A stretch of 20,697 nt of DNA from a virus: positions 1 to 20,697 of the IMG/VR virus record IMGVR_UViG_3300005617_000530. One strand, written 5' to 3'. Below the pieces are notes generated by a model, which saw only the letters and a list, made by a program, of their open reading frames with translations, had not been told where the DNA came from and did not search any database. The translations under genes and the position numbers were made by a program. Shown here piece after piece: positions 274-20,604 of the stretch (position 1 is its first letter; every line of letters begins with the position of its first letter).

Positions 274-624
274 GTGCCCACAGCGCGCAAGTTCACGTGT
301 GCTTGGTACCGAAGCGAGACCGGCAACGAACCCGCCCGGGAGTGGGTTCGTGGGCTTCCGAGAGAAGCGCGGCACGAAATCGGAGCAGACATGCTGTACG
401 TGCAGGCGTTCTGGCCGACGGGTATGCCGCGCGTCCGATCGCTAGGAGGGGGCCTGCACGAGCTTCGAACCACGGCTGCGTGCGGTGAGTACCGACTGTT
501 TTTCTGCGTCGAAGGCACCACGATTGTGGCGCTGCACGGCTTTCAAAAGAAGACCCAAGCGACGCCGGCCGGTGAGCTCAAGACGGCCAAGGAACGGCTC
601 AAGAAGGTGAAGGGGAAGCGATGA
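274..624 (+). CDS. higB: HigB-type toxin (phage Gp49-like, RelE/ParE superfamily)
   Basis: This 116-residue protein matches the Gp49-like HigB family. These are ribosome-dependent mRNA interferases or gyrase-type toxins of the RelE/ParE fold. Visible family features are the N-terminal strand followed by P-A-R-E-W-V-R-G-L-P (20-29), the central G-G-G-L-H-E-L-R-T strand (58-66), Y-R-L-F-F (73-77), and the C-terminal H-G-F-Q-K-K-T-Q (88-95) that precedes a Lys-rich helix. The length is normal for the family. The start is GTG at 274; an ATG two bases upstream is in the wrong frame. The stop overlaps the start of the antitoxin gene by 4 nt (ATGA), so the two are translationally coupled, toxin first, as in HigBA loci. 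It is plus-strand, against the surrounding minus-strand tail operon, so it is cargo rather than a virion gene. Which RNA or target it cuts cannot be told. Confidence 0.88.
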   Translation: MPTARKFTCAWYRSETGNEPAREWVRGLPREARHEIGADMLYVQAFWPTGMPRVRSLGGGLHELRTTAACGEYRLFFCVEGTTIVALHGFQKKTQATPAGELKTAKERLKKVKGKR

Positions 625-959
625 AAAACAAGCACATTGGCTCAAGCCTTGAATCGCTCTTTGAAGAGCTCGGCGAGCTCGGCGAAGTGCAAACGCTGGC
701 TAGCAAGAAGATCCTTGCCGAGCAGTTCCGCAGGTCCATGGAACTCAAGCACGTCTCTCAGAAGGCTCTTGCGGATCGTATGGCCACGAGCCGAACCGTG
801 ATCAACCGACTCTTGGATCCGAATGACACCGGGGTAACCCTTGCGACCATGGTGAAGGCCTCGGATGCCCTTGGTATGCGACTAGAAGTGCATGTGCGGG
901 ACAAGGGCACTCGTAGCAAGCAAGTCCCCAAGAGGGCTGCGGCCAAGCGGTCACGGTAG
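621..959 (+). CDS. higA: HigA-type antitoxin (XRE-family HTH)
   Basis: This 112-residue protein has an XRE-type helix-turn-helix at about residues 46-66 (S-Q-K-A-L-A-D-R-M then S-R-T-V-I-N-R-L-L), followed by T-G-V-T-L-A-T-M-V-K-A and D-A-L-G-M-R-L-E-V, which are typical of HigA antitoxins. The N-terminal 40 residues (acidic helix E-L-G-E-L-G-E) probably form the toxin-binding part. The C-terminus is strongly basic (K-R-A-A-A-K-R-S-R). The start ATG overlaps the toxin stop as ATGA, and an AGGGG ribosome-binding site lies 5 nt upstream (611-615). It should neutralise the HigB-like toxin and, through the palindrome at 247-266, repress the operon. Family assignment is firm. The operator pairing is inferred. 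Confidence 0.88.
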   Translation: MKNKHIGSSLESLFEELGELGEVQTLASKKILAEQFRRSMELKHVSQKALADRMATSRTVINRLLDPNDTGVTLATMVKASDALGMRLEVHVRDKGTRSKQVPKRAAAKRSR

Positions 960-9088: not shown

Positions 9089-9459
9089 TAGTAGACCTCA
9101 AGGTTGGATCCGATACCGGTCGCAGGCTGCGCGCGAGGAACCCGAAGGGCCTTGCTCAGCTCGTTGAGCAGATACTCCTTGAGAGAGATAAGCTTCGAGA
9201 GTTCATTGTCTCGAAGCTTTAAGTCTCCCAGCGTATCGAGTTTGAATCGGCTGCGGCTCTTGAAGATATCCGTGTCGACCTTCGTGATTCTCGGCAAAAG
9301 CGTGTTACGGATGTACCCCTCACCGAACGTATTGATGTTCTCCTGCACGACCACTTCGAACACCTGGGCGATGTCAAAGTAGGGGCGTGCAAGCGCGGTA
9401 AGGTCGGAATACCCCAACCAGTGCTTAATCTCCTGAATCTCGAGATCGGTGAAGGCCAT
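9088..9459 (-). CDS. Putative head-tail connector / neck protein
   Basis: This 123-residue, largely helical protein starts MAFTDLEIQEIKHWLGYSDL. The later segments V-V-V-Q-E-N-I-N-T-F-G-E and R-N-T-L-L-P-R-I-T-K-V-D, and a long amphipathic helix (E-L-S-K-L-I-S-L-K-E-Y-L-L-N-E-L-S), fit a neck or adaptor subunit. It is placed after the small capsid-associated genes and just before the gp36-like connector, overlapping it by 1 nt. I do not recognise a specific family; the role is inferred from its position and helical character. Confidence 0.55.
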   Translation of the reverse strand: MAFTDLEIQEIKHWLGYSDLTALARPYFDIAQVFEVVVQENINTFGEGYIRNTLLPRITKVDTDIFKSRSRFKLDTLGDLKLRDNELSKLISLKEYLLNELSKALRVPRAQPATGIGSNLEVY

Positions 9460-9461
9460 GT

Positions 9462-9839
9462 TTAGGCTACAACGGTGGTGTCATCACCCACGCGACGCCA
9501 TGCCGTGCCGTCGTTGTAGACCAAGGTGCCCGTGCCAGAGCCGGATCCCTCTCCGACCTTGCGGCCATCGGAGGCATACGCGACCTGACGGACTGCGTTG
9601 GCAGGCAATGTTGCGACGGTGTAGGTTGCGATTTTGAATGCAGACGAGAACGTCTTGATGCCGGCAACCGTCTCGTTGCCGGTGTTGTGAACCACGTCGC
9701 CGTTACGCGCAGAGTCATTGGCAGATGACGCAGCACCAAGGTTGGTGATCTTGTTGCCAGCCGCGTCGAGATTGGCGGCTAGCGGGCCACCAACGGGCGT
9801 TGCGGCGGGCTGAGGTACTCCGTCCACGAGGACAATCAT
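9462..9839 (-). CDS. Small virion protein resembling a tail-fibre/decoration fragment
   Basis: This 125-residue protein contains N-L-D-A-A-G-N-K-I-T-N-L-G (24-36), then N-G-D-V-V-H and E-T-V-A-G-I-K-T-F-S-S. The phrase 'aGNkItnLg' with a following 'vaGiKTFsS' is the repeat pattern of phage tail-fibre collars, where fibres carry A-A-x-x-A-T-K-x-Y-V-D and I-A-G-x-K-T-F. The C-terminal half has strands around R-K-V-G-E-G-S-G and G-T-A-W-R-R-V-G-D-D, also common in fibre tips. Its place in the head module, and its small size, suggest a head fibre or capsid decoration protein rather than an adhesin. It overlaps the upstream gene by 4 nt (ATGA). Confidence 0.65.
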   Translation of the reverse strand: MIVLVDGVPQPAATPVGGPLAANLDAAGNKITNLGAASSANDSARNGDVVHNTGNETVAGIKTFSSAFKIATYTVATLPANAVRQVAYASDGRKVGEGSGSGTGTLVYNDGTAWRRVGDDTTVVA

Positions 9840-10183
9840 GCTTTTTCACCCCCGCGCGCTTCGATAGCGACCGTGGTGCCCGAGGCGCTCGTTGCAGTCA
9901 GTCGCGCCCTAGCACCCGTAAACGCCTGCATCTCGATCAAGCGTGTGGACCCTGCTGGTAGTGGACCAAAGTTCTGGCCGAGCGCCAGAAACGTCGTGCC
10001 AACGGGTGATTCATAGATCGTCAGCGTCTCGATATCGTGTGAGCCGGTGTTGCTTAGGGCCACGCAAAGGCTGTCAATCTTGCGAGTATCAAGGCCCGTC
10101 GCATCCGACAGTAAGTCGGTTTCTGTGGCGGCCGGGACCGTCACGCTGCCTACCTTCGAGAAGGTCTGCCGTTCAGTCGACAT
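9836..10183 (-). CDS. Small virion-associated protein of unknown function (decoration candidate)
   Basis: This 115-residue protein is strand-rich and Thr/Ser/Ala-rich, with a pattern of short strands (V-G-S-V-T-V-P-A, I-E-T-L-T-I-Y-E-S-P, T-R-L-I-E-M-Q-A) that fits an Ig-like or jelly-roll-like capsid-surface subunit. It is not recognised as a specific family. It lies in a run of four small genes between capsid and connector. It overlaps the 50-residue upstream gene by 11 nt and the downstream fibre-like gene by 4 nt, so all are probably co-translated. The initiation codon is ATG at 10183. Confidence 0.55.
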   Translation of the reverse strand: MSTERQTFSKVGSVTVPAATETDLLSDATGLDTRKIDSLCVALSNTGSHDIETLTIYESPVGTTFLALGQNFGPLPAGSTRLIEMQAFTGARARLTATSASGTTVAIEARGGEKA

Positions 10184-10325
10184 GTTCAGACCGATGCTCT
10201 GAGACGTGCGACGCGCCTTCGGTAGGCGTGTGCTGTGCCTCCGAGAGGGGCGCCGGCGCCGATTGCTCGGGCACAGACGCGGGCACCGAGGGCTTCGGTG
10301 CCTTCTTCTCAGCGTCCTTGGCCAT
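10173..10325 (-). CDS. Very small Pro/Ala/Glu-rich protein (50 aa)
   Basis: A short frame of 50 residues begins MAKDAEKKAPKPSVPASVPE and ends S-E-H-R-S-E-H-V-D. Its ATG (10325-10323) overlaps the TGA of the upstream gene by 1 nt (TGATG), and its stop overlaps the next gene by 11 nt, so it is tightly embedded in the operon. Composition is low-complexity: Pro, Ala, Ser and charged residues, with three His near the C-terminus. It could be an extended linker or virion accessory peptide. The stop-start overlap on both sides is the main reason to treat it as coding. Confidence 0.6.
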   Translation of the reverse strand: MAKDAEKKAPKPSVPASVPEQSAPAPLSEAQHTPTEGASHVSEHRSEHVD

Positions 10326-10708
10326 CAGTTCGAAAACTGGCCTTTCTGGTAGGCAATGTCGATCGTGACGGCGCTGTTCGTGATCGTGCCGGTGGATGAG
10401 ACCGCAAGGCGAAAGAGCTTGGCGCCTGTGCAATCCACCACGAAGCACTTCTTGCCGGTGGCCGTAAGGGTCAGAGCCCCCGGCGAGGTTACGTCGTGCC
10501 AGTTGGTGCCATCCACGCTTAGCTGAGGCGTGAAGATCGCGTTGGTCAGCGAGCCGACCGTGAAGTTGATGAAGACCTGAACCTTCTGCGTCACTGACGC
10601 ATTGACGTTCACGGCCGTGGTGTTCGCGGCGGCATTCGCGATGCCAGCCGCAGCGAGCACTTGGTAGTACGGAGAGGGCGATTGCAGCCCTGACTGAGAA
10701 AGAGGCAT
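10325..10708 (-). CDS. Small virion protein downstream of the capsid gene
   Basis: This 127-residue protein has an Ala-rich start (P-Y-Y-Q-V-L-A-A-A-G-I-A-N-A-A-A-N) and then a strand-rich body with V-Q-V-F-I-N-F-T-V-G-S-L-T, P-Q-L-S-V-D-G-T-N-W-H-D-V and A-K-L-F-R-L-A-V. The S-x-D-G-x-x-W element is common in phage structural proteins with Ig-like folds. It is the first gene after the major capsid protein in operon order, 39 nt from its stop. A decoration or head-stabilising subunit is likely by position. The family is not recognised. Confidence 0.6.
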   Translation of the reverse strand: MPLSQSGLQSPSPYYQVLAAAGIANAAANTTAVNVNASVTQKVQVFINFTVGSLTNAIFTPQLSVDGTNWHDVTSPGALTLTATGKKCFVVDCTGAKLFRLAVSSTGTITNSAVTIDIAYQKGQFSN

Positions 10709-15072: not shown

Positions 15073-16298
15073 CAGTAGTCATTCAACGGAGAGTCATCGG
15101 TCGCGCTCGCCGGGGGAACCGACTGAGCAATCCATGCGTAAGCCGCGGCGTCACAAAAGTCGTCATAGGTGCCGACCGGAAACGAGAGTAACTCACGCGT
15201 GAAGTCGGGATTAAGATCCGGAGCGTGGTGAATCAGCCCCTGCTCATAGCGCGCTTCAAGGGGCTGGAAACGGGTTAGCTTATCCCGATCGGGCCGAACG
15301 CCTTCCACTGGCAGGTACGTCGTCCTAAGAAGCTCTTGAATCACCGCGGCCTGATACTGAACCTGCTCGATGGCGATCTTTCGTGGATTCCAATCGGCCG
15401 CAGCCCGCTTGATGAATTCGAGCACCTGATAAAACGGCGCCCGAACTCTGCGCGCGTCTAGAATCCACAGTTCACCTTTCGGCGCACGCCCCAGTACCAC
15501 CACCGCCGTGTAGTCCGCGGAGGTCTTTTCGCTAATCGCGAGGTCCACGCCCATCGTGATGGATAGGCCCTCGGGCGGCTCGGTCGTCTGCAGCCACGCT
15601 CGGCTGATGCGAGCGCCACCCGCGGAAACAAACTCCGCGCCAAACTCTCGCCGAGCGACAATGTCTGGCACCGCTGCCCGTGCCACAGCGATCTCACTAG
15701 GATCGATAAAAGGATTCGTTTCGCTCGGGAAAGACCAGCTTTTCCAGCCAGATTCACCGCGCTCACCCCTTTTATAAAGCTCATGAAACCAGCCGTCTTC
15801 GACATTGGGCGTCGAGACGAACAAGGCTCCGCCTTTGCGATCGGCAAGCGCTGGGCGAATCACATTCTCCCAGACCTCGCCGGGTTGGAAATCGGCTTCA
15901 TCGACGACGACAAAGTCAATGCCCTCACCGCGAAGGTTGTCGGCGTTATCGCTCGACTTGAACCAGAACTCACCGCCACCGGGGAATCGAATGCACCTCT
16001 CGGCGACTCGGATCTCAACGTCTGGCACCTGACCTGCCAGCGGGACAACGAGACGCCATGCGATACCAGCCTGCGCATACGTCGGAGCGAGCCACCAGAC
16101 CCTTTGGCCAGCGATGGCTCTAACCACGCCCATTGCCACGCCAAGGCGCGTCTTGCCCCAGCGACGGCCGCAGACCAGAACCTTCCAGCGCGCAGGATGA
16201 TCAGCTACCTCAATCTGTTTCGGGTGAAGGCTCGGTTTGTTCCGAATCCTCACCCGTCTTTTCATCTGCCCATCGGAGATCGATTGCGATAGCCCCAC
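15072..16298 (-). CDS. terL: Terminase large subunit
   Basis: This 408-residue protein has a Walker A motif C-G-R-R-W-G-K-T at residues 43-50, Walker B V-V-V-D-E-A-D (130-136), a motif III-like F-V-S-T-P-N (160-165), and a C-terminal RNase H-like nuclease start T-M-G-V-D-L-A (248-254) with later acidic residues (E311, D379, D380, D383). This is the ATPase-nuclease that cuts concatemers and drives packaging. The assigned start is GTG at 16298; an ATG at 16265 (codon 12) is the main alternative and would shorten the overlap with the small subunit. The family is certain; the start is not. Confidence 0.93.
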   Translation of the reverse strand: MGLSQSISDGQMKRRVRIRNKPSLHPKQIEVADHPARWKVLVCGRRWGKTRLGVAMGVVRAIAGQRVWWLAPTYAQAGIAWRLVVPLAGQVPDVEIRVAERCIRFPGGGEFWFKSSDNADNLRGEGIDFVVVDEADFQPGEVWENVIRPALADRKGGALFVSTPNVEDGWFHELYKRGERGESGWKSWSFPSETNPFIDPSEIAVARAAVPDIVARREFGAEFVSAGGARISRAWLQTTEPPEGLSITMGVDLAISEKTSADYTAVVVLGRAPKGELWILDARRVRAPFYQVLEFIKRAAADWNPRKIAIEQVQYQAAVIQELLRTTYLPVEGVRPDRDKLTRFQPLEARYEQGLIHHAPDLNPDFTRELLSFPVGTYDDFCDAAAYAWIAQSVPPASATDDSPLNDY

Positions 16299-16665
16299 CG
16301 TCTTTACCTGTATGCTCGTGCCGCTCTTTGCGGCCCCACTTCTCCGGGTAGCGACGCTCTAAGCGCCACGCGGCGGCTGTCCACTGCTCCGTTGCAGCCT
16401 TGGCGATCAGCGCAACGTCGCGGATCTCGGACGCTGCGATCGCTTCGTGCACCGCGTCATGGAAGTCTCGGTACGGAGCTTCCTCGTCACTCGTGTCATT
16501 CGCTTGAATGGCCCGCGCGCCACGCCGTAGCCAGTCGTAATACCGATCCTTGGCAATGCCTGCGTAGGCCGCTGCGGTATCGACGTAGTTGCCGGCTCGA
16601 AGGACGCTACAGATCTTCTCAGAGAGTTCCGGGGTTAGTTTGGTCGGTTTGGTGACCCGAGCCAT
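16210..16665 (-). CDS. terS: Terminase small subunit
   Basis: This 151-residue protein (from ATG at 16665) contains an N-terminal helix-turn-helix: L-S-E-K-I-C-S-V-L-R-A-G-N-Y, then T-A-A-A-Y-A-G-I and D-R-Y-Y-D-W-L-R-R-G-A. The A-A-A-x-A-G-I and Y-x-W-L-x-x-G pattern is typical of small terminase subunits that bind the packaging site. The central helix E-I-R-D-V-A-L-I-A-K-A would be the oligomerisation helix. The region after E-K-W-G-R-K-E-R is acidic. The TTG at 16686 is a less likely start. The 3' end overlaps the large subunit by 89 nt from GTG 16298, or 56 nt from ATG 16265. Confidence 0.85.
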   Translation of the reverse strand: MARVTKPTKLTPELSEKICSVLRAGNYVDTAAAYAGIAKDRYYDWLRRGARAIQANDTSDEEAPYRDFHDAVHEAIAASEIRDVALIAKAATEQWTAAAWRLERRYPEKWGRKERHEHTGKDGGAIAIDLRWADEKTGEDSEQTEPSPETD

Positions 16666-17401
16666 GGGATCCGTCTTTGATTGCAACCCAGGCGGCGAAG
16701 TTCATCCAACGCCAGACGCATTCAACGTGCGTAAAGCCTGCGCCTTGGAGAATCTGGTGGTTCCATGCTGCGCGCATCGGAACCAAGACCCCTTCAAGAG
16801 AGGCGCGTTTGCGCTCGATCGCTTCTGGGGAATAGCCCTGGGACTGCTTGTATGCGTGGTATTCCGCGATCAGGGTGTCATCGATCCGAACGGTGGAGCC
16901 GATGACCTTCTCTGTAAACAGAAAGGCGCCGCCCGGCACCGTAGAACGAAAGACATCAGAGACGATACGAGCTCGGTATTCAACCGGCACGAACTGCAAA
17001 GTAAGAATCGCAAGCGTGACACTTGCACGAACGTCCGGGTAGGTATCACGCAAGTCATGCTGCCGGATGCTGACATCTGGCCGATCGGCAAACTGCTCGC
17101 GGGCATAGGCGAGCATCGGTTCAGAGACTTCCGTCCCGACGAACGTGCATCGGCCTTTGAGCGCGTCGGCAATCGGGGCAAGCCCACTACCACGGCTACA
17201 ACCAAGATCCACGATCTCAGTGCCGTCTTGTGCGTACCGAAGGGTTAACCGCGTGACGACGTCTCGGAGCGCTTCGTATTGCGGGATCGAGCGTGCAAGC
17301 ATGTCATCGAAACAGCTTGCAACGGCATGGTCAAACGACCACCGACCGCTAGGCTGATGCTCGAGACTGTCGTCCGAAGGTTCGTCGGTACTCGGCTGCA
17401 T
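16619..17401 (-). CDS. cmoA: CmoA-like carboxy-SAM (Cx-SAM) synthase
   Basis: From ATG at 17401 this protein has 260 residues and aligns along its whole length with E. coli CmoA, which makes carboxy-S-adenosyl-L-methionine from SAM and prephenate. Shared segments, by my recall of E. coli CmoA, are W-S-F-D-H-A-V-A near 21-28, R-S-I-P-Q-Y (37-42), the SAM motif D-L-G-C-S (65-69), T-L-Q-F (134-137), V-P-G-G-A (155-159) followed by E-K, G-Y-S-x-x-x-I-x-x-K-R (189-199) and N-F-A-A-W-V-A-I-K. Arg199 matches CmoA Arg199, which binds the Cx-SAM carboxylate. Differences are CmoA D89/N90 to E91/V92 and N132 to I132. The end overlaps the small terminase and the start lies inside the asparagine-synthetase-like gene. 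No CmoB partner is present. The upstream TTG at 17470 is a less likely start. Family assignment is strong; product not proven. Confidence 0.85.
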   Translation of the reverse strand: MQPSTDEPSDDSLEHQPSGRWSFDHAVASCFDDMLARSIPQYEALRDVVTRLTLRYAQDGTEIVDLGCSRGSGLAPIADALKGRCTFVGTEVSEPMLAYAREQFADRPDVSIRQHDLRDTYPDVRASVTLAILTLQFVPVEYRARIVSDVFRSTVPGGAFLFTEKVIGSTVRIDDTLIAEYHAYKQSQGYSPEAIERKRASLEGVLVPMRAAWNHQILQGAGFTHVECVWRWMNFAAWVAIKDGSHGSGHQTDQTNPGTL

Positions 17402-18758
17402 AGAAACTCTGGGGGCTTGCAAGCCTGGACTCAATGACCGCTTTGAGGCCCATGCCGTCCTGGAAGGCAACCTTAGGGCGCCGCGTCACGATAGCGGGAA
17501 GTAGTCCCGCCATCGCATCCTGAATGACCGCCTTGGGGCGCGCCTTGCCATCCTGAACAACCCGCTGGGGGAGCGAAAGCGCGAACTCAACCAAGGGCGG
17601 GTGAAGAAACGGCAGGCGGCACTCTACGGAGTGGGCCATAAAGACTTTGTTGCACCGGGGGAAGTTCTTGCGGGCTTGGGTCAGAAACAGGTTCTTGCGG
17701 TAGGTGTGCCAGTCCTGCGTTTTGAGCGCGTGGTAGGCAAAGCCGTAGCTGCCCCAGAGTTCATCCGAACCTTCCCCGCTAAACGTCACCTTGAAGCCGT
17801 CGCTATGCATGGCCTGGGCAAGCCGTAGACAAGCCCAGCCGATCTCGACCTGTGCCTTGTAGGGCTGCTCGATGACCCGCACGACCTTGGCCAGGTCATC
17901 GGCTGATGGCGGCGGGACGCGAATTTCGCGTAACTCGATCCGAAGCGCAGCAGCAACCTCTCGAGCCGCCCGGAGGTCTTTGGACTTGCGATCCAGAACG
18001 GCCGTGTAGGCTACAAGCCCGGGACGCTCTTGGGCTAGGAAGTAGGCCACCGCGGCCGAATCAATCCCGCCGGATAGTAGGGTACAGACCGGGACGTCGC
18101 TAATCGCTCGCTCTCTAGACCCTCGTTCAATCAAGCCACGTAGGGAGGCCCGCGCGGCTTCGGGTGTCATCGGAACGGGACGGGCAGGGGGATCGTACCA
18201 ACGAGCCTTCCGAATGCCCTTGGCAGAGACTTCTAGGCGCTCACCCGGTCCTACATCCGTGATCGCTGCGGGCTGGACTCGTAGGGCAAGCAGTGCCTTG
18301 AGTTCGGACGCAAACACAAACGGCTTGGTGGGCGCATAGTGCAGCGGGACTTCACCAAAACGATCGCGTGCTAGGTGCAGCGTCTTGCCGTCATTCGTCC
18401 AGGCAAGGGCAAACATCCCATTGAGCCTGGCCAACGCAGCAGGGCCCCACGTCTGGAGCGCGGCGGCTACGACTTCGGTGTCACCGGTCGTAGTGAAGGT
18501 TTTGCCAAGCGTCTGGAGTTGGGCTCGGACGGCTTTGTAATTCCAGATCTCTCCGTTGAATGCGAGAGCAACCTTGCCGTAGTGAAACGGCTGATTGCTG
18601 CGAGGATCGAGGTCTAGGATGGCCAGGCGCGTATGGCCTAGTACGACGTCACCGGCCTGGAAGATGGATTGTTGATCCGGGCCACGGTGAATCAGTGCGG
18701 CGATTCCACGTTCGATGGTAGTCGGCTGGATCCATAGACCCCCGACTAGGCCGCACAT
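17349..18758 (-). CDS. Asparagine-synthetase-like glutamine-dependent amidotransferase
   Basis: This 469-residue protein has the N-terminal nucleophile Cys2 (M-C-G-L-V-G-G), then H-R-G-P-D (24-28), H-T-R-L-A-I-L-D (42-49), F-N-G-E-I-W-N-Y (67-74) and G-D-T-E-V (92-96), the glutaminase pocket of class II amidotransferases. The synthetase half has the PP-loop S-G-G-I-D-S (229-234), S-G-E-G-S-D-E (327-333) and the Lys of R-R-P-K-V-A-F-Q-D-G (426-435), which aligns with catalytic K449 of E. coli AsnB. The E. coli AsnB aspartate segment T-x-R-A-S-T-P (by recall) is not there; its place reads A-Q-V-E-I-G-W-A (302-309). So ATP-activated carboxylate amidation is expected, but on another substrate. 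It overlaps the C5-methyltransferase stop by 13 nt and the CmoA-like start by 53 nt. Proposed substrate: the carboxymethyl group on DNA cytosine. Confidence 0.85.
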   Translation of the reverse strand: MCGLVGGLWIQPTTIERGIAALIHRGPDQQSIFQAGDVVLGHTRLAILDLDPRSNQPFHYGKVALAFNGEIWNYKAVRAQLQTLGKTFTTTGDTEVVAAALQTWGPAALARLNGMFALAWTNDGKTLHLARDRFGEVPLHYAPTKPFVFASELKALLALRVQPAAITDVGPGERLEVSAKGIRKARWYDPPARPVPMTPEAARASLRGLIERGSRERAISDVPVCTLLSGGIDSAAVAYFLAQERPGLVAYTAVLDRKSKDLRAAREVAAALRIELREIRVPPPSADDLAKVVRVIEQPYKAQVEIGWACLRLAQAMHSDGFKVTFSGEGSDELWGSYGFAYHALKTQDWHTYRKNLFLTQARKNFPRCNKVFMAHSVECRLPFLHPPLVEFALSLPQRVVQDGKARPKAVIQDAMAGLLPAIVTRRPKVAFQDGMGLKAVIESRLASPQSFYAAEYRRTFGRQSRASA

Positions 18759-20053
18759 GAGAGCTTGCGAAGAATCTGGTCACGAACCGTGGAAGCGATT
18801 GCCGCCATCATGACCGGGGGAACGGAACGACCACAGCGCTCCCATTGCTGAGCGTAGGTGCCTTTGAGCACAAAGTCATCCGGGAATGAACAGATCCGCT
18901 TGAGTTCCGCGATTGAGAACTTACGCCGCTCCGTCGGGTGCGTGACTGATGCAACGGACGCATCCCCGCCACGCTGAGTGATTGTCGGGCACGGCGCGTT
19001 CGGATCCGGGCGCACGAGCTGAAAGTATTTCTCGCTCTGCTCGCCTTGCTTGAGCTTGTCCCATTCGGCACCGACCGCATAGCGCGAGATATCTGCCTCA
19101 GGCTCGATCACGAGAGAGATCTCAGAATTCGTGTGACGCCGGCCGTGCGTAAGCACGGTGGGAGCAGGCTCGTCGAGTGATCGCGTTTTCTTGTGCGTTG
19201 CGACGCTCACGGCCCGGCTCTGAGCCTGCACATGAAAACGCATATTTGAGCCACCACCCGCGGAACGGATCGTACACATGGGCTCGTTCGCAACATCGAA
19301 AACACGGGTACCCTCGAAACCCCTAGCGTCGTGTGTCACGGCAGTAATCCACGGCAACGCATCGCGTACGCTGTATCGATAGGGCAGCGGGCTTGGGTGT
19401 GCGGGCGCTAGACCGAGATCATTGCGCACGCCGACAAAGATCAATCGCTGTCGTGCCTGCGGAACACCGAGCCACTGGGCATCAAGAAGCTGGGCGGCTA
19501 CGCGATACCCGCATGCCTTGAGCGCTGCCAGAATCTCCTTGAAGTAGCCCTTGGCCGTGCCCTTCACGAGACCCGAGACGTTCTCGGCTACGAAGGTTTT
19601 CGGCTGAAGACCTTTGAGTAGGCGCGCGTACTCGAAGAACAGATCATCAACGCGTTGGGCCGTATCCGAGTAGGCCTTGACCTTGCCCCAGGCTTCTTCA
19701 CGCTTACCGGCCGTCGAGAAGGACGCACACGGCGGGGAGCCATCGAGCAAGTCAATCTCACCGACCTTGAGCTTGGTAGCCTTGAGAATGTCCTCGGGCT
19801 GGATCTTTCGGATATCCCGCGGATCAAGAATCGTGCTTTCGAAGTTCGCTTGGTAGGTCTCACGCGCTGCGGGGATAAACTCATTCGCCCAGACCACCTT
19901 GAAGCCGGCCATGCGGTAGCCAAGGCAAGACCCGCCGCCACCAGAGAACGTGCTTACGACCTTGAAACCGTTCCACGGCAGGGCCCGGATCTCGGCCATG
20001 CTCGGCACGCGGTAAGGCGGCTTCGCTGGTGCCTGCTTACGCTTTACGACCAT
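18746..20053 (-). CDS. DNA cytosine-C5 methyltransferase with Arg in motif X (predicted carboxymethyltransferase)
   Basis: This 435-residue protein has the motifs of C5-cytosine methyltransferases in order: motif I S-T-F-S-G-G-G-G (34-41), a motif II acidic residue in A-N-E-F (56-59), motif IV S-P-P-C-A-S-F-S (106-113, Cys109 the nucleophile), motif VI E-N-V (157-159), motif VIII Q-A-R-Q-R-L-I-F (199-206), then a target-recognition stretch and F-P-D-D-F near the end. Motif X reads C-G-R-S-V-P-P (407-413): Arg409 (codon CGT at 18829-18827) replaces the near-invariant Asn of G-N-S/A-V-P-P. Asn-to-Lys at this position in M.MpeI (N374K, by recall) lets the enzyme take Cx-SAM. With a CmoA-like gene two places downstream, carboxymethylation of cytosine is likely. 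Recognition sequence unknown. ATG at 20053 overlaps the ParB-like stop by 10 nt. Confidence 0.93.
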   Translation of the reverse strand: MVVKRKQAPAKPPYRVPSMAEIRALPWNGFKVVSTFSGGGGSCLGYRMAGFKVVWANEFIPAARETYQANFESTILDPRDIRKIQPEDILKATKLKVGEIDLLDGSPPCASFSTAGKREEAWGKVKAYSDTAQRVDDLFFEYARLLKGLQPKTFVAENVSGLVKGTAKGYFKEILAALKACGYRVAAQLLDAQWLGVPQARQRLIFVGVRNDLGLAPAHPSPLPYRYSVRDALPWITAVTHDARGFEGTRVFDVANEPMCTIRSAGGGSNMRFHVQAQSRAVSVATHKKTRSLDEPAPTVLTHGRRHTNSEISLVIEPEADISRYAVGAEWDKLKQGEQSEKYFQLVRPDPNAPCPTITQRGGDASVASVTHPTERRKFSIAELKRICSFPDDFVLKGTYAQQWERCGRSVPPVMMAAIASTVRDQILRKLSCAA

Positions 20054-20604
20054 TCATACCCGCACTTGGGGCACTTGTGCTCGGTCTCGATCGACTCATC
20101 GAAGGACTTGAACCCTTCCGGCGCGATCGCTTCTGCTGTCGTGTTGAGCAACGCATCAATCTCGGTATCGTGCCAACCGGCTACGAGCGCGACGTCCGTG
20201 CCCTGCTGTCGTAGGTCACCGAGTAGCGCAATGAGCTGCTCGTTGTCCCAAGAGCCAAGCTCGTTCAAGCGATTGTCCGCAAGCGCGAGCAGGTGCGCAT
20301 CGGCTGGATCCAGGTCCAGGAACCGTACCGGCACGCGAGTCATCCCGAGCATCTCGGCAGCCTTGAGCCGCGTGTGCCCCGCGATCACTTCGCCGTCTTC
20401 ACGACGAGCAAGGATCGGCGCAGCAAACCCGAAGCGCTTGATGCTCTCGACTACCCGCTGAATATGCGTGTCATCGTTGCGCCGCGGGTTGCGATCCCAC
20501 GGCTTGAGCGCGGTAATCTCCACCCATTCCGCCGCAAGCTCTTTTTTAGAGGGTACGGAATCTCTGGATTCCTTCGAAGCCTTGTCGATTTTGCTAGATT
20601 TCAC
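20044..20604 (-). CDS. ParB/Srx-fold nuclease-domain protein with C-terminal zinc-ribbon-like tail
   Basis: This 186-residue protein has the ParB N-terminal domain. After a basic N-terminus (residues 1-25), K-P-W-D-R-N-P-R-R-N-D (34-44) opens the fold, then I-x-R-V-V-E-S-I-K-R-F-G-F (48-60), the conserved G-E-V-I-A-G-H-T-R-L (71-80) and A-L-A-D-N-R-L-N-E-L (107-116). The end is H-K-C-P-K-C-G-Y-E-W-S (176-186): one Cys pair and a His, so at most half a zinc site. Phage ParB/Srx-fold proteins are often encoded beside or fused to DNA methylases. Here it leads the hypermodification operon, and its stop overlaps the methyltransferase start by 10 nt. Whether it is an NTPase switch, nuclease or DNA-binding partner is not visible. 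The start is GTG at 20604 with no clear ribosome-binding site. Beyond it, 20605-20697 holds a weak imperfect hairpin and no gene I can recognise. Confidence 0.82.
   Translation of the reverse strand: MKSSKIDKASKESRDSVPSKKELAAEWVEITALKPWDRNPRRNDDTHIQRVVESIKRFGFAAPILARREDGEVIAGHTRLKAAEMLGMTRVPVRFLDLDPADAHLLALADNRLNELGSWDNEQLIALLGDLRQQGTDVALVAGWHDTEIDALLNTTAEAIAPEGFKSFDESIETEHKCPKCGYEWS

Follow-up and report, generated by a model that had tools for sequence, protein, structure and literature searches.

The window, that is, the whole stretch of DNA analysed here, is a 20697-base virus fragment from IMG/VR, whose phage genes include, as judged by domain and PHROG profile matches, those for the small and large terminase subunits and the tail sheath. 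The matches of the large subunit, TerL, are scattered, all with less than 60% identity. On the strand opposite to the phage genes, at 274-959 (plus strand), there is a small gene pair, phrog_3445 (annotated as a toxin, E 2.5e-6) followed by an HTH protein, that looks like a toxin-antitoxin pair. A string of four genes in the order ParB, CmoX, CmoY, CmoA, with overlapping ends and all on the minus strand, runs into the small terminase gene, terS. The features are as follows.

20044..20604, minus strand: ParB-N domain protein, 186 aa, the first gene of the cassette (PF02195, E 2.5e-8)
18746..20053, minus strand: cmoX, predicted DNA cytosine C5-carboxymethyltransferase, 435 aa, overlapping the ParB gene by 10 bases (8YF3 match)
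18827..18829, minus strand: codon of CmoX Arg409, aligned with SpCmoX Arg350 and M.HhaI Asn304 and predicted to bind the Cx-SAM carboxylate (role from PMC12783734)
17349..18758, minus strand: cmoY of the glutamine-amidotransferase (GAT) type, predicted amidating ligase acting on 5-carboxymethylcytosine (5cxmC), 469 aa, overlapping cmoX by 13 bases (GATase_6/7 and Asn_synthase domains)
17844..17858, minus strand: codons of CmoY K301-A-Q-V-E305, aligned where asparagine synthetase B has its T-T-x-R motif
16619..17401, minus strand: cmoA, predicted Cx-SAM synthase, 260 aa, overlapping cmoY by 53 bases (TIGR00740 and 4GEK matches)
16805..16807, minus strand: codon of CmoA Arg199 (by alignment)
16210..16665, minus strand: terS, terminase small subunit, outside the pathway (phrog_4102, E 1.1e-37)

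The cmoA frame (17401..16619) starts with ATG and is terminated by a stop codon. Since no clear ribosome-binding site is seen at the start codon, the first residues are uncertain. The first-pass annotation had described this gene as a CmoA homologue and, from its overlap with the small terminase gene, as phage-borne, and both statements hold. The protein matches the TIGR00740 CmoA family over residues 19-242 with E 1.6e-45 and E. coli CmoA (4GEK) with E 7.1e-31, hence the assignment is not a chance one; it also matches PHROG 4752 with E 6.3e-67, and no closer match to an ordinary methyltransferase family emerged from the HMM comparison. The overlap with terS is real and comprises 47 bases (16619-16665), provided that terS begins at its ATG, and the record around it is that of a virus, with genes for terminase and tail. 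What gives cmoA its meaning is the upstream genes at 17349-20604, which the first-pass annotation did not cover.

The pathway to which these genes point was described in December 2025 (PMC12783734, Nat Commun). With phage S-B43 it was shown that Cx-SAM is the product of CmoA, that CmoX forms 5-carboxymethylcytosine in GC sites, and that glycine is ligated to this base by CmoY. Many phages carry the CmoA/CmoX/CmoY genes, with frequent ParB neighbours. In addition, a second ligase cluster with a glutamine-hydrolysing domain was predicted to use ammonia, although soluble protein was not obtained (PMC12783734). Judged by its sequence, the window cassette is of this kind, with the second, glutaminase-bearing, type of ligase. 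As the same study searched IMG/VR v4, with 5,615 CmoX sequences, the window contig may already be among them.

Our survey covered 196 loci forming 151 groups, including three E. coli control loci (L013 is an E. coli control) and the window; the loci were chosen by conserved patterns, and the proportions given below are not population frequencies. The best 80 of 395 confirmed relatives were kept for CmoA, the best 80 of at least 582 for CmoX, and all 21 for CmoY. A scan of viral contigs with the window CmoA as a single sequence yielded one relative only, and profile queries were needed. Scanning bacterial genome contigs with the CmoY alignment brought up a single true cassette (L196); the other 79 loci, of the AsnB family, served as controls.

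The genes of the cassette are tightly linked. CmoX accompanies CmoA in 48 of the 63 non-redundant CmoA-query groups; nine have a ParB-methyltransferase fusion instead, and six have neither in the DNA covered. Conversely, the CmoX-query groups contain CmoA in 62 and ParB in 60 of 65 cases. Both CmoA and CmoX are present in 28 of the 29 phage groups with GAT-type CmoY, the exception, L103, beginning inside cmoY at a contig end. CmoX is followed by CmoA, close by and on the same strand, in 26 of these 28 groups, while in one the order is reversed and in one the genes are further apart. The order ParB-CmoX-CmoY(GAT)-CmoA is also seen in Streptomyces phage TurkishDelight and in the chromosome of Streptomyces sp. 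CCM_MD2014 (L196, NZ_CP009754.1 4635520-4652938). The latter cassette is likely a prophage, and its CmoA is the only CmoA-family match in that genome. In Moraxella phage Mcat8 (L011, 4490-6699) ParB-CmoX-CmoA, lacking CmoY, are situated a little upstream of the gene for the terminase.

The best PDB match of the window CmoX is 8YF3 (E 1.4e-71), the structure of SpCmoX with Cx-SAM, for which the residues Phe25, Glu47, Phe48, Asp69, S95-P96-P97-C98 and Arg350 were named (PMC12783734). All nine are kept in the window protein, as F36, E58, F59, D80, S106-P107-P108-C109 and R409. Arg350, which corresponds to Asn304 of M.HhaI, binds the Cx-SAM carboxylate, and wild-type SpCmoX accepted only Cx-SAM (PMC12783734). 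The window CmoX has both the SPPC motif and Arg at the R350 site, the two marks by which that paper recognises a CmoX, and its residues are the published signature of a cytosine carboxymethyltransferase. The residue at the Asn304 site is Arg in 124 of 124 readable CmoX groups (two further groups are unreadable), this count partly reflecting the search, as the profile derives from members that have this Arg. In a Staphylococcus SPbeta-like phage (L008, 4983-6682) cmoA lies beside an HhaI-like C5-methyltransferase with Gly, not Arg, at the Asn304 site (a GGVI stretch).

The window CmoA scores 155.6 bits on TIGR00740, below the curated cut-off of 193.3, and thus falls outside this equivalog. Since SpCmoA, assayed as active (PMC12783734), scores even lower, 115.6 bits, the cut-off marks the bacterial clade and not activity. 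In the manner of phage CmoAs, the window protein is a family sequence with a predicted Cx-SAM pocket, encoded at the same locus as CmoX. The cofactor-pocket residues were compared with those listed for E. coli CmoA in PMC3663124; of these, Tyr39, Asp62, Gly64, Ser66, Asp117, Phe137 and Arg199 are kept, and three are changed (D89E, N90V, N132I). As had been noted in the first-pass annotation along with these changes, Lys198-Arg199 retain the same residue numbers and the K-R context of E. coli CmoA.

Two shortcuts are corrected by the survey. The idea that the pocket changes tune activity is not borne out, as they are ordinary in phages: none of 146 phage CmoAs has Asn at position 132, 99 of them have Glu at position 89, and SpCmoA, roughly tenfold faster than its E. 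coli counterpart (PMC12783734), has E89, L90 and L132. Nor is Arg199 needed to call a phage CmoA, although it had been treated as diagnostic. It is present in all 24 bacterial tips of the tree but only in 70 of the 146 phage CmoAs; Arg203 occurs instead in 19, both in none and neither in 57. The window protein is R199/E203, whereas SpCmoA is E199/R203. Given that many phage CmoAs, the assayed one included, do not have R199, this residue supports activity but does not define it. Arg203 may take over the salt bridge of Arg199, as suggested by the spacing of one helical turn. Some of the 57 proteins with neither arginine form a group marked by the stretches HVREQLPWY and, near residue 207, QRP.

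The CmoA tree was constructed by FastTree from 171 sequences. The bacterial set of 24 tips consists of 22 genomes and E. coli twice; L303 comes from a bacterial genome but has A199/R203, and was excluded from this set as a likely prophage copy. The 24 tips are split exactly from the phage sequences, with support 0.974. The window CmoA is placed among the phage proteins, its close neighbours L026, L022 and L038 being weakly supported.

The CmoY protein consists of GATase_6/7 and Asn_synthase domains. The glutaminase residues Arg44, Asn68, Gly69, Glu70 and Asp93 are present in all 29 non-redundant GAT-type CmoYs, and Cys2 in 28, the remaining one starting beyond the contig end; the catalytic Lys and Glu and the residues of the PP-loop are the same in every one of the 29. 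The window CmoY, an AsnB-like ligase adjoining CmoX and with an Ntn glutaminase intact by sequence, falls into the GAT cluster. Its AlphaFold (AF2) model has mean pLDDT 95.8 and aligns with E. coli AsnB (1CT9) with Z 46.0 and rmsd 2.2 over 451 residues, and with beta-lactam synthetase (1mc1) with Z 37.3 and rmsd 3.1 over 437.

The T-T-x-R motif has a role in the synthetase site of asparagine synthetase B. The window CmoY lacks it: at this site there is A-Q-x-E (A302, Q303, E305), within the pattern KAQ[VI]EI, as in all 29 GAT-type CmoYs. Of the 80 AsnB-family loci from chromosomes that served as controls, L196 alone has KAQxE, and it is the one that contains CmoA and CmoX. SpCmoY, which has no glutaminase domain, carries KKTHFEC at this site and shares the K-x-x-x-E stretch with the window CmoY. 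A KT..EC-like pattern is seen in 17 of the 23 sequences listed as non-GAT CmoY and is absent from six; L122, counted among the 23, is in fact a disrupted gene of the GAT type. The simplest reading would be that GAT-type CmoY shares the acceptor, 5cxmC, with SpCmoY and uses a different amine, ammonia. On the other hand, E329 and D332 of CmoY are kept and correspond to Glu364 and Asp367 of human ASNS, which contact the aspartyl part according to PMC6748925; these residues are thus compatible with asparagine synthesis by CmoY. The same paper calls Thr336 of human ASNS highly conserved and places it at the active-site surface. In L111 (6819-9401) CmoX and CmoY are in one open frame. A genuine fusion was considered and rejected, as the normal end of CmoX is lost right after GRAVPP, just before CmoY, which looks like a frameshift or an assembly error.

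Homology, residues, the CmoY fold, gene order and recurrence form the basis provided by this analysis. We consider it quite likely that cmoA provides the Cx-SAM synthase for a cassette, CmoA/CmoX/CmoY, that hypermodifies phage DNA and leads to amidated 5cxmC. By comparison with assayed relatives (PMC12783734), CmoA would convert SAM and prephenate to Cx-SAM, and CmoX, with its Asn-to-Arg carboxylate binder, would use Cx-SAM to carboxymethylate cytosines of the phage DNA at C5, yielding 5cxmC. CmoY would then adenylate the carboxylate of 5cxmC and amidate it with glutamine-derived ammonia. The ammonia step and its product, 5-carbamoylmethylcytosine, are moderately probable by analogy. On balance we favour a cassette that puts a primary carboxamide on cytosine, giving 5-carbamoylmethyl-2'-deoxycytidine, by means of a glutamine-dependent amidotransferase acting on DNA; we found no report of this base, and none of the papers listed in a literature search (20 of 62 matches) uses the name carbamoylmethylcytosine. 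The benefit of the modified cytosine would likely be protection from host restriction; analogy suggests both this role and the DNA sequence that is modified. The earlier proposal that the phage CmoA supplies Cx-SAM for a new use stands in part: a use outside tRNA is likely, with a CmoX-type neighbour and no CmoB match in the loci surveyed other than the E. coli control, but the use itself has already been published (PMC12783734).

With the same CmoA/CmoX pathway, CmoY could instead attach another amine, e.g. glycine, the glutaminase domain being vestigial or releasing ammonia just as a side activity. Beta-lactam synthetase, the fold neighbour mentioned above, has a glutaminase domain whose function has been lost. 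Further, SpCmoY does ligate glycine (PMC12783734), and the synthetase domains of the two CmoY types are homologous and share K-x-x-x-E. However, loss of function would let the catalytic glutaminase residues drift, whereas they are kept throughout the 29 proteins, with the single truncated exception for Cys2, and we regard the attachment of another amine as unlikely.

The two departures from the DNA-modification pathway as a whole fare worse. If these were auxiliary host-metabolism genes, CmoA would boost tRNA cmo5U and the AsnB-like protein would make asparagine for the phage. Indeed, E. coli CmoA is an enzyme of the tRNA pathway, and CmoY retains the whole AsnB fold as well as the Glu/Asp pair. 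But among the 196 loci a match to E. coli CmoB turned up only in the E. coli control, the window being a 20.7 kb fragment, and phage CmoAs lie outside the exact bacterial clade; on these two grounds the tRNA reading of phage CmoA was rejected. Together with the absence of T-T-x-R from every GAT-type CmoY and the tight linkage to an Arg-bearing C5-methyltransferase, this makes the host-metabolism explanation very improbable. Alternatively, the C5-methyltransferase might use ordinary SAM and make 5mC, with CmoA serving something else, as its fold and the SPPC-type motif are common to SAM enzymes. Arg at the Asn304 site speaks against this, given the strict preference of SpCmoX for Cx-SAM, as does its occurrence in all readable CmoX groups, even if that is partly a search effect, and we find production of 5mC extremely improbable.

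Some CmoA phages have no CmoX. A ParB-methyltransferase fusion is situated upstream of CmoA in 11 of the 151 groups. Nine are full-length, with open frames of 525-584 aa (L001:3725-5263, L007:1032-2621, L022, L024, L049, L057, L083, L092, L100), and two are cut by contig ends (L093, L099). It is also present in the annotated Pseudomonas phage SM1 (gp052, L276:5638-7194) and Gordonia phage Evaa (gp2, L277:702-2237). CmoX was found in none of the 11 groups, and PF00145 is absent from 12 of 12 whole records checked, including the complete Aeromonas phage HJ05, as well as from SM1 and Evaa. The fusion belongs to phrog_5475 (no annotated function). Its model has mean pLDDT 78.7; the ParB part aligns with 7BNR (Z 11.0, rmsd 1.8, 92 aligned), and among class I methyltransferases METTL6 (8OWX) comes first (Z 12.9, rmsd 3.3, 185 aligned), many others being almost level with it. 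Fourteen records of annotated phages (Evaa, HJ05 and 12 Pseudomonas phages) match the fusion over at least 80%, and a CmoA-family gene is located near it in all three loci examined (SM1, HJ05, Evaa). As the CmoAs of SM1 and HJ05 have no Arg at 199 and 203, their activity is less sure than that of the eight full-length IMG/VR members with R199. The ParB-Rossmann methyltransferase fusion is a candidate for a second Cx-SAM-dependent transferase, and its conservation in phages without CmoX makes them candidates for a second Cx-SAM-dependent modification.

Two further CmoA genes with R199, in Alcaligenes phage Afa-NA1 (L005, 78 kb) and in L030 (4918-6639), are in records with no C5-methyltransferase over their whole length. 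Near CmoA there is a D12-type adenine methyltransferase in the former (9217-10533) and an N6/N4 methyltransferase in the latter. No N6 or N4 carboxymethyltransferase candidates were reported in PMC12783734.

The window provides a clean example of the GAT branch of a phage DNA modification that was described only recently, and sequence evidence that its acceptor would be the same 5cxmC as that of the assayed glycine ligase. Like Synechococcus phage S-B43, it has CmoA, an Arg-bearing SPPC CmoX and an AsnB-like CmoY in one locus. Unlike SpCmoY (271 aa), the window CmoY has an N-terminal glutamine amidotransferase domain; the gene order differs as well, CmoX is 42% identical to SpCmoX, and CmoA has R199/E203 in place of E199/R203.

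Closer in organisation is the cassette gp122-gp125 of Streptomyces phage TurkishDelight (L003), with the same gene order and overlap, a GAT-type CmoY with 54-55% identity and a CmoX (gp123) with 58-62%. Its protein is presumably of the kind called the A0A7T0Q3R0 cluster in the 2025 paper. However, its CmoA, of the A199/R203 type, aligns with no more than 28% identity, which, set against the close CmoX and CmoY, suggests an exchange of CmoA between cassettes.

Among the bacterial enzymes, E. coli CmoA (4GEK) has the same fold family, Arg199 and most of the cofactor contacts, but it belongs to the separate clade, no CmoB partner of the window CmoA was found in the 20.7 kb, and the two differ by D89E, N90V and N132I. 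Similarly, E. coli asparagine synthetase B (1CT9) shares with CmoY the fold and the glutaminase and PP-loop residues, whereas the window CmoY has A-Q-x-E for T-T-x-R and is 85 residues shorter.
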